A stretch of 64,000 nt of DNA from Thalassotalea sp. (lineage in GTDB: Bacteria > Pseudomonadota > Gammaproteobacteria > Enterobacterales > Alteromonadaceae): contig JAKVCY010000013.1 of NCBI GenBank assembly GCA_022448425.1, positions 1 to 64,000 of the forward strand, given 5' to 3'. A program made the translations under genes and the position numbers. A model generated the notes under the pieces. The model was not told where the DNA came from and did no database searches. It was given only the letters and a program-made list of their open reading frames with translations. This document shows, one piece after another, positions 1-3,032 of this stretch (position 1 is its first letter; each line of letters opens with the position of its first letter).

Positions 1-2
1 CA

Positions 3-212
3 TTTTTATTAGAAAACATTGATGTGACAAGTGATGACGTAGCTAAGATTAAGTCGGTGTTTTACCTTAGTGACTTCCCAAACACCAATGTAAAGTATTA
101 TCAAGCATCACTAATTGCTGTGGAGCCGATGAACCCAAAGGGCATGTACAGAGCCTTAGAAAGATTGAACAATGGCGAACAGTTTGAGGACGTTTTTAAC
201 GAATTCTTTTAA
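3..212 (+). CDS. C-terminal fragment of an unrecognised protein, cut by the left edge
   Basis: The frame is open from the first bases of the window and stops with TAA at 210-212. The track starts it at an internal GTG (24), but the codons before it are also open, so this is probably the tail of a longer gene. About 69 residues are visible; the end is acidic and aromatic (EDVFNEFF). I recognise no family. A hairpin (GTGTTGAT ... ATCAACAC, 213-248) follows directly but has no T run. It could be the end of a regulatory or toxin-antitoxin-like protein, but nothing visible settles that. Confidence 0.55.
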   Translation, partial: FLLENIDVTSDDVAKIKSVFYLSDFPNTNVKYYQASLIAVEPMNPKGMYRALERLNNGEQFEDVFNEFF

Positions 213-366
213 GTGTTGATTAATATTGAAATTTTATTATATCAACACAGAAATGGATCAGAGCCTAGTTATAGCCTACATTTCTTCTTTGCTAGTACCT
301 TTTTATTCAATGGAGCATAGTGGATATCTGCTTAAATCTTACCTTTCTAACGACAAGCTAAAGCCC

Positions 367-456
367 ACCAAAACGAAAAAAGGGTAATAACCTTATGGCT
401 ATTACCCTTTTTGATTGTATGTCTAATAGAAATTAGTGGTTTTCAGACACCATGTT
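367..456. repeat. Left copy of a 90-bp direct repeat: displaced fdx 3' end plus terminator (attachment-site-like)
   Basis: This stretch matches 2628-2717 at 81 of 90 positions by hand alignment. The first 28 bases and the last 24 (TTAGTGGTTTTCAGACACCA onward) are identical. Read on the minus strand the inner end encodes MVSENH-stop, the last residues of ferredoxin Fdx, with only a non-matching remnant and a stop codon upstream. It is therefore a displaced fdx 3' end with its terminator, as expected of the outer attachment site of an element that integrated at the end of fdx and rebuilt the gene with its own copy. No integrase is visible. The rest of the gap 213-521 holds only a weak hairpin and nothing else I recognise. 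Confidence 0.7.
376..412 (-). terminator. Duplicated fdx-type terminator hairpin
   Basis: Inverted repeat AAAGGGTAATA ... TATTACCCTTT. On the minus strand it is followed by a T run, and on the plus strand by TTTTTGA, so it could act in both directions. It duplicates the terminator of fdx at 2636-2671. Confidence 0.6.
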
Positions 457-521
457 GTTGATATATTCGATTTAGGACAAATGCTATTTCAAAATAGATA
501 GCAATATAAGCCCCAAAATTA

Positions 522-2492
522 TTACTGAGAACGTTTAACAATCAAAATGATTGAAAGAAGAAGCAAGCACCACAAAGCCCCCCCTGAACTATTTTTAGGC
601 TTATCTAAAACTTTTATAGTAGTAGTCTCACTCACACTCAATTCACCGTCACTTACAGTAACTTTGAAACGATAGTCTTCATCGCCTGAGACACTCGGTG
701 CAACGAAAATAAATGATGTTATTGCATTAGCTAAATCTAAAGCTGTAGCGCCAGATAACTGTTCCCAAATAATAGTTAATTCATCACCATCCAAATCTTG
801 AACTTCTAGATTGACGGCTAATTCTTCATTTTCTATTACGTTTGCAGACATAGGAGTAAGCTGTATAGTGGGGGCTTTATTAACATCAACAATATTAACG
901 TCCAAAAATACTGTTTTAGCATAATTACCATCTGAAACTTCTACAGAAAAAGCGATCGTCGTATCGCGTTCAACTTCTGGCGCTAAAAAGCTTAAATCTT
1001 TTTCTTTTTCTGAAAAATCTAGCACTAACTCGTCGGATAGCTGTCGCCAACGATACTCTAGCTCATCATTATCTTCATCATATATCGATAACTCTAGAAA
1101 AAAAGTATCTCCTTCATTAGCCATTAACTGCTCTTCAGGCAAAGCAATTGCTGGGGCTATATTAAGTTGCGAAACATTTGTGACACTATTGGTTACAGGA
1201 TCATAGTACGTTAAGTTGCCAACTGATTCGGAATTTTTGGAATGGAAAAATAATTTATTATCAAACGATTGAAAATTAACAGGATTGGAACTTACATCTC
1301 CTGAGTTTATATCGGCCACCTGCTCAATCGTTAAAGTTGACTTATTGACCTTCCACAACTCTCTCCCTAGAGTTTCAGTAAAACCAGAAAAATAGAGTTC
1401 ACCTGCAAAAATAAACAAATTATCAGGTTCAAGGCTTCCTGAGCCCTCCATTGTAGATGCATATAAATCTATTTTATTTTCGTTTAAATCAAGCTCAAAT
1501 ATTTCACTTCCAGTCTCTGGAGATTTGGCAACAAAATAAACCTTATTCCCTTGCCTAGCAAATGAATCAGAAAAAGATTCCAGCTGGGCTAACCACTCAC
1601 CGTCAAGTAAAGTTTCATCGTGAGTATCGGGGTTATAAACAACTACCCCTCCTTTTTTAACGGAAAAATCAACAAGATCTAATCTATGGTCGTAACGAAT
1701 AGTAGAATTGAAAAACGTATAAGTATTTTCTTCACTTGAAATAACTTTTTGAATTTCAAAAGTTTCAGATGACTGAGCATCGTTGAGATATCCTAATGCG
1801 CGAGCACAAACTGCAGAGTCGGTTTGCGTAGCAGTTACCGTATCATAAAAAATGGCACAATCTTTTCGTTTAAAATGTGAAGATTCACGATAAACCTTAA
1901 TCAAATAGTGTTGATGTGCGACAAAATCAAAGCCTTTTAATTGTGCGTTTGATGAAGTAGAAAAGTTGTCACTCAGATCGATATTCGTAACTTCACCAGA
2001 ATTAATAACAATTTGATTAAAGAGCCATTCATGTCCGGCAAAGAGTGCAACAAAAACCAGTTGGCTATTAAATACTAGCGGGTTAAAAATATCGTAAAGG
2101 TTATTCGAGTCTTTTTTAAGCTCTATTCCTTCAACCATTTCTATTGTGTTGGTCAGTGGATTGATATACCTAAGCCTTGTCGACCACGAAGACACTTGGC
2201 TCAAATTGCTGAAATATAAACGTCCACCATAGCTCACTAAATTTTCAGGGTCAGAGCTTGAAGCCCCGTCTAAAAAATCCTCTATTAATGTAGCCACGTT
2301 TGACTGCGGATCATATTGCCATAGCTCCTGACCATGAATTGCATCTTCGGCAGTAAAATATAACTTCCCATCGTGAACAGTAAGTTCAGATAGATTGGTA
2401 AAATGGAAGTTAGCATTTGCGACAGCTGTTTTTGAACCGAAAAATGTAAGTAAAAAGCCAATTAATACGATTGCCCTAATATTAGAAACCAT
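522..2492 (-). CDS. Secreted beta-propeller/Ig-like repeat protein with GlyGly-CTERM-like tail
   Basis: A 656-residue protein with an N-terminal signal segment (hydrophobic to about residue 25, ending AVANA). Residues ~30-430 carry irregular repeats of the form ELWQYDP / ELWKVNK, like the ELW-repeat propellers of secreted marine proteins. Residues ~445-630 look like two tandem PKD/REJ/cadherin-like folds (FSVEVSDG, FKVTVSDG). The C terminus has SSGGALW, a hydrophobic stretch and KRSQ, the layout of a GlyGly-CTERM sorting signal handled by rhombosortase and the type II secretion route. It is the only gene between the two fdx-end repeats, so it is probably the cargo of an insertion. Function unknown; surface attachment or polymer binding would be a guess. 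Confidence 0.75.
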   Translation of the reverse strand: MVSNIRAIVLIGFLLTFFGSKTAVANANFHFTNLSELTVHDGKLYFTAEDAIHGQELWQYDPQSNVATLIEDFLDGASSSDPENLVSYGGRLYFSNLSQVSSWSTRLRYINPLTNTIEMVEGIELKKDSNNLYDIFNPLVFNSQLVFVALFAGHEWLFNQIVINSGEVTNIDLSDNFSTSSNAQLKGFDFVAHQHYLIKVYRESSHFKRKDCAIFYDTVTATQTDSAVCARALGYLNDAQSSETFEIQKVISSEENTYTFFNSTIRYDHRLDLVDFSVKKGGVVVYNPDTHDETLLDGEWLAQLESFSDSFARQGNKVYFVAKSPETGSEIFELDLNENKIDLYASTMEGSGSLEPDNLFIFAGELYFSGFTETLGRELWKVNKSTLTIEQVADINSGDVSSNPVNFQSFDNKLFFHSKNSESVGNLTYYDPVTNSVTNVSQLNIAPAIALPEEQLMANEGDTFFLELSIYDEDNDELEYRWRQLSDELVLDFSEKEKDLSFLAPEVERDTTIAFSVEVSDGNYAKTVFLDVNIVDVNKAPTIQLTPMSANVIENEELAVNLEVQDLDGDELTIIWEQLSGATALDLANAITSFIFVAPSVSGDEDYRFKVTVSDGELSVSETTTIKVLDKPKNSSGGALWCLLLLSIILIVKRSQ

Positions 2493-2627
2493 CTCATAAA
2501 ATCCTTTTATTTTCTATTACTTAAAGCTATAAGAGTGAGACAATACTACATTGTGAAGCACTATGCAAATCAACAGTATACGTTTGTTCGTATTGTAAAG
2601 AGGTATGGATATCAGTTAATTAAAAGT

Positions 2628-2717
2628 ACCAAAACGAAAAAAGGGTAATAACCTTCTGATTATTACCCTTTCTCATCGTATGTCTATGAGAAGTTAGTGG
2701 TTTTCAGACACCATGTT
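2628..2717. repeat. Right copy of the 90-bp direct repeat (functional fdx 3' end plus terminator)
   Basis: Contains the last codons of the intact fdx gene (MVSENH), the intergenic bases and the terminator. It pairs with 367-456, about 2.26 kb away in the same orientation. The mismatches lie in the middle while both ends are perfect, which suggests an old duplication or an element brought in from a related strain. Confidence 0.7.
2636..2671 (-). terminator. fdx / isc operon terminator
   Basis: Stem AAGGGTAATA ... TATTACCCTT; on the minus strand the hairpin is followed by TTTTTTCG. It lies 23 bases beyond the fdx stop codon and would end the isc operon. Confidence 0.7.
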
Positions 2718-3032
2718 CACGGTGTACTTAGGGATTTCTACCACTAAGTCTTCATCCTTGATGATAGCTTGGCAACCTAAACGTGACTCGGGCTCTAAGC
2801 CCCAAGCTTTGTCTAGCATGTCGTCTTCAAGTTCATCAGACTCATCTAATGAGTCGAAACCTTCACGAATAATCATGTGACAAGTTGTACACGCACATAC
2901 TTTCTCACATGCATGCTCAACACCAATGCCATTTTTTAAGGCAACGTCTAAAACCGTCTCGCCCGTTTCCGCTTCAATAACGGCACCGTCTGGACATAAC
3001 TCTTCATTTGGTAAAAATATAATTTGTGGCAT
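2694..3032 (-). CDS. fdx: ISC-system [2Fe-2S] ferredoxin
   Basis: 112 residues, the usual length for Fdx (111 in E. coli). Cysteines 42, 48 and 51 (HACEKVCACTTC) and the later LGCQ cysteine are the four [2Fe-2S] ligands of the adrenodoxin-type fold. It supplies electrons during Fe-S cluster assembly on IscU. It is the last gene of the isc operon, 2 bases after hscA. No iscX follows; downstream comes a duplicated fdx end and a probable insertion. The start ATG is preceded by the hscA stop, consistent with translational coupling. Confidence 0.95.
   Translation of the reverse strand: MPQIIFLPNEELCPDGAVIEAETGETVLDVALKNGIGVEHACEKVCACTTCHMIIREGFDSLDESDELEDDMLDKAWGLEPESRLGCQAIIKDEDLVVEIPKYTVNMVSENH

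Follow-up and report, generated by a model that had tools for sequence, protein, structure and literature searches.

The window, a 64,000-nt stretch of DNA from Thalassotalea sp. whose base 1 is the first base of its contig, contains the 3' end of fdx twice with another gene in between. The gene itself (2694..3032, minus strand) encodes an isc-type [2Fe-2S] ferredoxin of 112 amino acids with the C-terminus NMVSENH*; integration, as discussed here, targets the 3' end of this gene. The direct repeats at 367-456 and 2628-2717 are identical at 81 of 90 positions without gaps. Read on the fdx strand, both copies contain AACATGGTGTCTGAAAACCACTAA (NMVSENH*) and, after it, a hairpin terminator; the repeat thus comprises the final eight codons of fdx, counting the stop, together with this terminator, and its first 24 nt are the same in both copies. 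Identity sets in abruptly at AACATGG and ceases just past the terminator. The fdx-proximal copy (2628..2717, minus strand) provides the last codons, stop and terminator of the gene, with the hairpin (AAAGGGTAATAAT...GTTATTACCCTTTTTT) at 2636..2675 on the same strand. The other copy (367..456, minus strand) is a displaced 3' end without a reading frame, and its terminator lies at 375..414 (minus strand). In the shuffled window, a 20-mer from the shared fdx end is expected 0.01 times. Across the 216 contigs of the 4.4-Mb draft genome no third copy of the fdx end was found, at an fdx paralogue or elsewhere, and the idea that the repeat is itself mobile in the genome was rejected on this ground.

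Between the repeats lies a single gene (522..2492, minus strand), which encodes a secreted protein of 656 amino acids with ELWxxDGT repeats, PKD/Ig-like domains and a GlyGly-CTERM-like tail, the C-terminus resembling those of rhombosortase substrates. This protein is 96% identical in the same cassette of a congener, G002, and has domain-level matches only in the other genomes searched. The initial annotation of this locus had described two roughly 90% identical 90-bp repeats spanning the fdx end and terminator, one of them closing the gene and the other displaced, with one GlyGly-CTERM-type secreted gene between them; open reading frames and alignment bear out each of these points. Its further proposal, that the DNA integrated site-specifically at the fdx 3' end, is supported by varied cargo, a conserved element end, tandem arrays and a pair of empty and occupied sites, as described below.

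The 25 nt adjoining the displaced copy (TTTGTCCTAAATCGAATATATCAAC; 457..481, minus strand) are a separate conserved element end, or P arm, and not decayed fdx. Alignment of 25 such ends revealed a sharp border and the consensus TTTGTCCTAAAGTGAACATACCATC|AAYATGG for element end and junction; TTTGTCCTAAAGTGAACATACCATC is absent from fdx, and in genomes with two fdx-end copies it precedes the displaced one. The displaced copy with its terminator has the form of an attR-type P-B' junction. In the window the element end is partly decayed relative to the consensus; in the G002 copy of the cassette the ends are better preserved. The aligned ends come from 16 of the 399 family genomes in the sample in which some of our counts were obtained by pattern search. 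Element end and fdx share a contig in 11 of the 16, and fdx or the end lies near a contig edge in four; the sixteenth, G366, has a real element end and stands outside this tally of fdx proximity. At TTTGTCC the information content of the alignment climbs from about 0.2 to 1-2 bits, and it is still high within the fdx end. The element-end pattern was matched 26 times in 18 of the 399 genomes, versus two matches for the reversed pattern. Matches in G156 and G091 (C1:3415182) were set aside as chance, both lying inside ordinary genes with no terminator. The exact NMVSENH* end occurs in 83 family genomes, eight of which carry it twice, and fdx homologues were found in 48 of 61 genomes searched.

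The gain of a segment is visible in two genomes that share a genus with each other, G020 and G153, on which the empty-site comparison is based in place of the species itself. In G020, fdx directly precedes a 424-aa gene, and in G153 a 300-aa gene is inserted between the two. The displaced fdx end of G153 and the DNA downstream of it are 89% identical to the empty site of G020, versus 65% for the fdx-proximal end and its downstream DNA; therefore it is the old end that was displaced, and fdx now uses an end borne by the insert. A related gene order is found without the unit in G028 and with it in G157. Relatives that have the gene order and lack the repeat are thus empty sites, and the integration reading stands. 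By analogy with G153 and G020, the window copy at 2628-2717 would be the fdx end supplied by the insert.

Comparison of the fdx locus in relatives, which the initial annotation had proposed, found different cargo at the same place, and in some genomes more than one insert. Tandem arrays of two to three units with differing cargo occur in G131, G078, G069, G032 and G002 (three units in G078, two each in G069 and G032). Behind fdx in G131, a unit with an amino-acid permease and a deiminase-like gene, a unit with a tricorn-like protease and a four-gene unit are arranged in series. Units terminate in an element end, an fdx end and, in most, a terminator, and most contain no recombinase gene. Single-gene cargo is common: besides the ELWxxDGT protein of the window, it includes an 896-aa LVIVD/Ig protein (G108), an endonuclease I with a lamin-tail domain (G120) and, by inspection, a PD40-like protein (G153). 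The cargo of G069 comprises a leucine-rich-repeat protein and a protein of 1967 amino acids. GlyGly-CTERM-like (rhombosortase) tails were recognized by inspection on the large secreted proteins encoded by window 522-2492, G108 (L112:3395-6085) and the 1967-aa ORF of G069 (L149).

Several further features of these islands were recorded. Rhs-type protein fragments are found among the cargo of the fdx islands of G217 (C4, C79), G290 and G201, together with a full Rhs-like protein of 2351 amino acids and a small downstream gene. The fdx-proximal island of G290 (C1, ~1526000-1547000; L156, L164, L165) contains two related multi-gene modules that look like a separate mobile element; in each, a DDE-type protein of 517-519 aa and a tyrosine recombinase (314/319 aa) are accompanied by two or three small proteins. 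The first 300 nt after fdx form a conserved non-coding left-end region in G002, G003, G032, G091, G153, G217, G290, G323 and G386, and this region contains the TCCTAAAGTGAACATAC site in inverted copies. Left ends of another type, starting GATCGGACATTATGTC, are present in G078, G131 and G069.

In Thalassotalea and its relatives among the Alteromonadales, a family of integrative elements uses the fdx 3' end as its attachment site in the chromosome, and we regard the status of this end as an insertion hotspot as close to certain. Insertion takes place at the block AAYATGGT within the last fdx codons; fdx is given a new end and terminator, its former end comes to lie behind the 25-nt element end, and units stack in tandem. 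In the window, the block common to attB and attP is AACATGGT (2710..2717, minus strand), as judged from fdx ends, displaced ends and the P' ends of G002 and G290, and it is the putative crossover region on the fdx side. The insertion envisaged by the initial annotation is therefore retained, but the stacked units of relatives make fdx a hotspot, not the scene of a single event.

G002, the uncultured Thalassotalea sp. 454-G, is a congener of the window's species. Its isc operon is about 96% identical to that of the window up to the last fdx codons, where the gene ends in NMVSER*; there follow 39 kb of DNA and then the window's cassette at 96% identity. The G002 copy of the cassette has intact element ends and diverges from the window exactly past the distal terminator. 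Positions 1..366 of the window, the DNA past the displaced copy, are unrelated by blastn to the DNA that succeeds the same cassette in G002; they include the end of a plus-strand ORF (3-212) with a single weak match (38%, G012). Because G002 has 39 kb between fdx and the same cassette, the window's species thus displays the state without this element, and G002 a composite structure in which large element and cassette lie side by side. Two side observations were made at this locus. The fdx-end copies flanking the cassette (G002:C4:173481-175765) are mutually identical over ~100 nt and each differs more from its window counterpart, which looks like gene conversion between the copies. The G002 array exceeds two units, since a further element end, weaker than the other two and accompanied by a terminator, lies 15 kb past the window's cassette (G002:C4:158400).

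The 39-kb element encodes a serine recombinase of 566 amino acids with Resolvase, Recombinase and Zn_ribbon domains, all above Pfam cut-offs, which is the domain set of a large serine recombinase. Its best NCBIfam match is CcrB (E 3e-17, 62.7 bits against a cut-off of 900), and XisF is second best, below its own cut-off. At high similarity the recombinase was found in two of 101 genomes, G002 and G290, in both cases at fdx; the G290 version is a truncated fragment, 89% identical to that of G002, directly adjoining fdx. The P' end that follows AAYATGGT on the G002 fdx, TAGTGAGCGATAGGACAAATTT, is present without mismatch in G290 and in no others of 80 genomes. Co-occurrence of recombinase and P' end in the same two of 80 genomes would have a chance of about 1/3160 if the two were independent and phylogeny is ignored. 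The P and P' arms match as a palindrome at 18 of 26 positions (shuffle p = 2e-5), AAYATGGT is the block in common with attB, and a palindromic attP is what is expected of serine integrases. A pattern-based scan of GTDB, which finds close relatives only, returned no close relative of the enzyme besides G002 itself. The draft genome to which the window belongs yielded no such recombinase. Viral contigs contained neither a relative of it nor an fdx end and the phage collection gave no match, and a known phage was rejected on this ground.

It is hypothesized that in autonomous elements a CcrB-like large serine recombinase joins a palindromic attP, which may be written AATTTGTCC-N13-CCAT CAAT ATGG-N13-GGACAAATT, to attB in fdx. 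Decayed or partial elements would stay behind as cassettes, and new elements would then integrate at fdx beside them; an autonomous element so placed could carry the neighboring cassette along, as the arrangement in G002 would allow (accretion and cis-mobilisation). Small cassettes like that of the window, bordered by an fdx attB end and an attR-type end, would be remnants or hitch-hikers. That the fdx 3' end serves as an attachment site at which cassettes accrete through a serine recombinase is, taken as a whole, the best explanation, and we hold it with good confidence. For its parts, it is fairly likely that the window insert is an accreted cassette, and the sequence comparisons lean modestly towards the CcrB-like large serine recombinase as the enzyme. 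The absence of an integrase from the unit and the partial decay of its element end support a stranded cassette and not a self-moving element; the decayed end and the failure to detect such a recombinase in the draft genome indicate that the cassette is probably fixed in place. The initial annotation had likened the event to integration of elements at tRNA and other gene ends, which holds for insertion at a gene end but not for the likely enzyme, which in relatives is a large serine recombinase and not a tyrosine integrase of the tRNA type.

Three features speak against this explanation. The fdx-proximal end in the window is B-B'-like, whereas a plain serine-integrase attL would carry P'. The fdx-like end of the cassettes might come from recombination with incoming isc DNA, from excision of an upstream element or from an attP resembling fdx. 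In several genomes, G003 and G323 among them, the terminator and the 160-300 nt of left-end sequence after the fdx-like end resemble those of G002, suggesting that ordinary fdx DNA may have taken the place of P' by recombination. Secondly, the left ends carry extra inverted TCCTAAAGTGAACATAC copies, which serine integrases do not normally need. Thirdly, the recombinase is truncated in G290, in G002 some 7 kb separate it from the right end, and tyrosine recombinases are also present in both islands.

In a different account, the insertions are the work of a tyrosine recombinase, which would recognize the fdx 3' end as a usual attB of its class and bind the repeated TCCTAAAGTGAACATAC sites of the left end as arm-type sites. 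Inverted copies of this site lie ~100-200 bp in from the left end, and tyrosine recombinases occur in the islands of G002 and G290. Gene 3' ends as targets and an identical stretch that restores the gene are typical of tyrosine integrases (PMC5704250). However, the 196-aa tyrosine recombinase of G002 is unlike those of G290 (~314-319 aa, in repeated multi-gene modules), and neither kind adjoins the ends, whereas the gene common to the very two genomes that possess the P' arm is the serine recombinase. We consider a tyrosine enzyme unlikely, at perhaps one chance in a few.

A less probable account treats the fdx 3' end as an integron-like entry point in marine Alteromonadales, where single-gene cassettes, each consisting of a gene with fdx end, terminator and 25-nt border, would be gathered in succession behind an essential gene by a recombinase whose own gene usually lies elsewhere than in the array. 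The equally doubtful mechanism would be individual excision and re-insertion at fdx, with the recombinase acting in trans. One-gene units free of recombinase in the window, G108, G120, G131 (unit 2), G153 and G069 are in keeping with this, as is the unrelated cargo within arrays. Yet no cassette was found in two genomes except in the pair of G002 and the window's species (G000), unit sizes reach 15-39 kb, and in most genomes no dedicated recombinase gene adjoins the array. In the window there is no integrase gene beside fdx, and the borders are fdx ends that by inspection are not attC-like. A Tn7-like transposon aimed behind fdx, with terminal inverted repeats, would account for inverted TCCTAAAGTGAACATAC copies at both ends and for a conserved gene end as target, but is very improbable: the gene end itself is exchanged (SER* versus SENH*), what is displaced is a 24-nt coding end with a terminator and not a short target duplication, and no obvious TnsABC-like genes were noticed by eye. 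Local tandem duplication of fdx, with decay of all but the end of the second copy, would explain two direct copies near each other but can be practically dismissed and was rejected, as a conserved non-fdx element end, not eroded fdx, precedes the displaced copy in 16 genomes and the empty and occupied pair shows gain of a segment.

Several known systems resemble the fdx inserts. SCC/SCCmec and the Enterococcus cassette chromosome insert through CcrA/CcrB at the 3' end of rlmH, leave the gene intact, have repeats at their borders and form composite tandem arrays. The fdx inserts likewise sit at the 3' end of a conserved, intact protein gene, with border repeats and tandem arrays; they differ in the target, in the lack of any ccrA/ccrB pair or mec genes seen, and in a recombinase that is not CcrB itself (62.7 versus the cut-off of 900). 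In Anabaena, the fdxN element splits the nif gene of that name until its excision during development. A ferredoxin gene as target and XisF as second-best family match are points of likeness, but here the isc fdx remains intact and the recombinase is below the XisF cut-off. In Dehalococcoides, tandem islands lie behind one essential gene, ssrA, each bounded by a gene-3'-end repeat; the displaced repeats bear a conserved short neighboring motif, some islands encode the CcrB-related serine recombinase DsiB and others none, and cis-mobilisation has been suggested (PMC3146451). The fdx arrays share the tandem arrangement, gene-end repeats, conserved border motif and patchy CcrB-like recombinase, but differ in phylum, in having a protein gene and not a tmRNA as target, and in that most units are small, many with one gene, and the recombinase was seen in two of 101 genomes searched. 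In CIME/ICESt1-type accretion, border sites are kept, recombination genes are lost and a larger element is joined at the shared site (PMC5704250). The window cassette, which has neither recombination nor transfer genes (its ORF list contains no recombinase and one cargo gene), is of CIME kind in this respect, and a larger element is joined at the shared site in G002. A CIME has attL and attR, whereas the left border of the fdx cassettes is a full fdx-like end; in the window cassette the borders are an attR-type end, decayed here and intact in G002, and an attB-like left border.

The principle is already known. The fdx site, the 25-nt signature and the element family appear to be undescribed in the open-access papers covered by our limited search; these, in line with the initial annotation, mention no hotspot at this gene. 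Should the recombinase prove active, its predictable attB within a conserved gene would make it useful as a tool. The 25-nt signature detects such inserts even where no integrase remains, and arrays across several genera permit study of tandem accretion beyond Firmicutes and Dehalococcoides. A conserved iron-sulphur-cluster gene thereby joins the list of integration hotspots. Because three single-gene inserts (window, G108 and G069) encode secreted proteins with GlyGly-CTERM-like tails, the fdx site may spread surface proteins.
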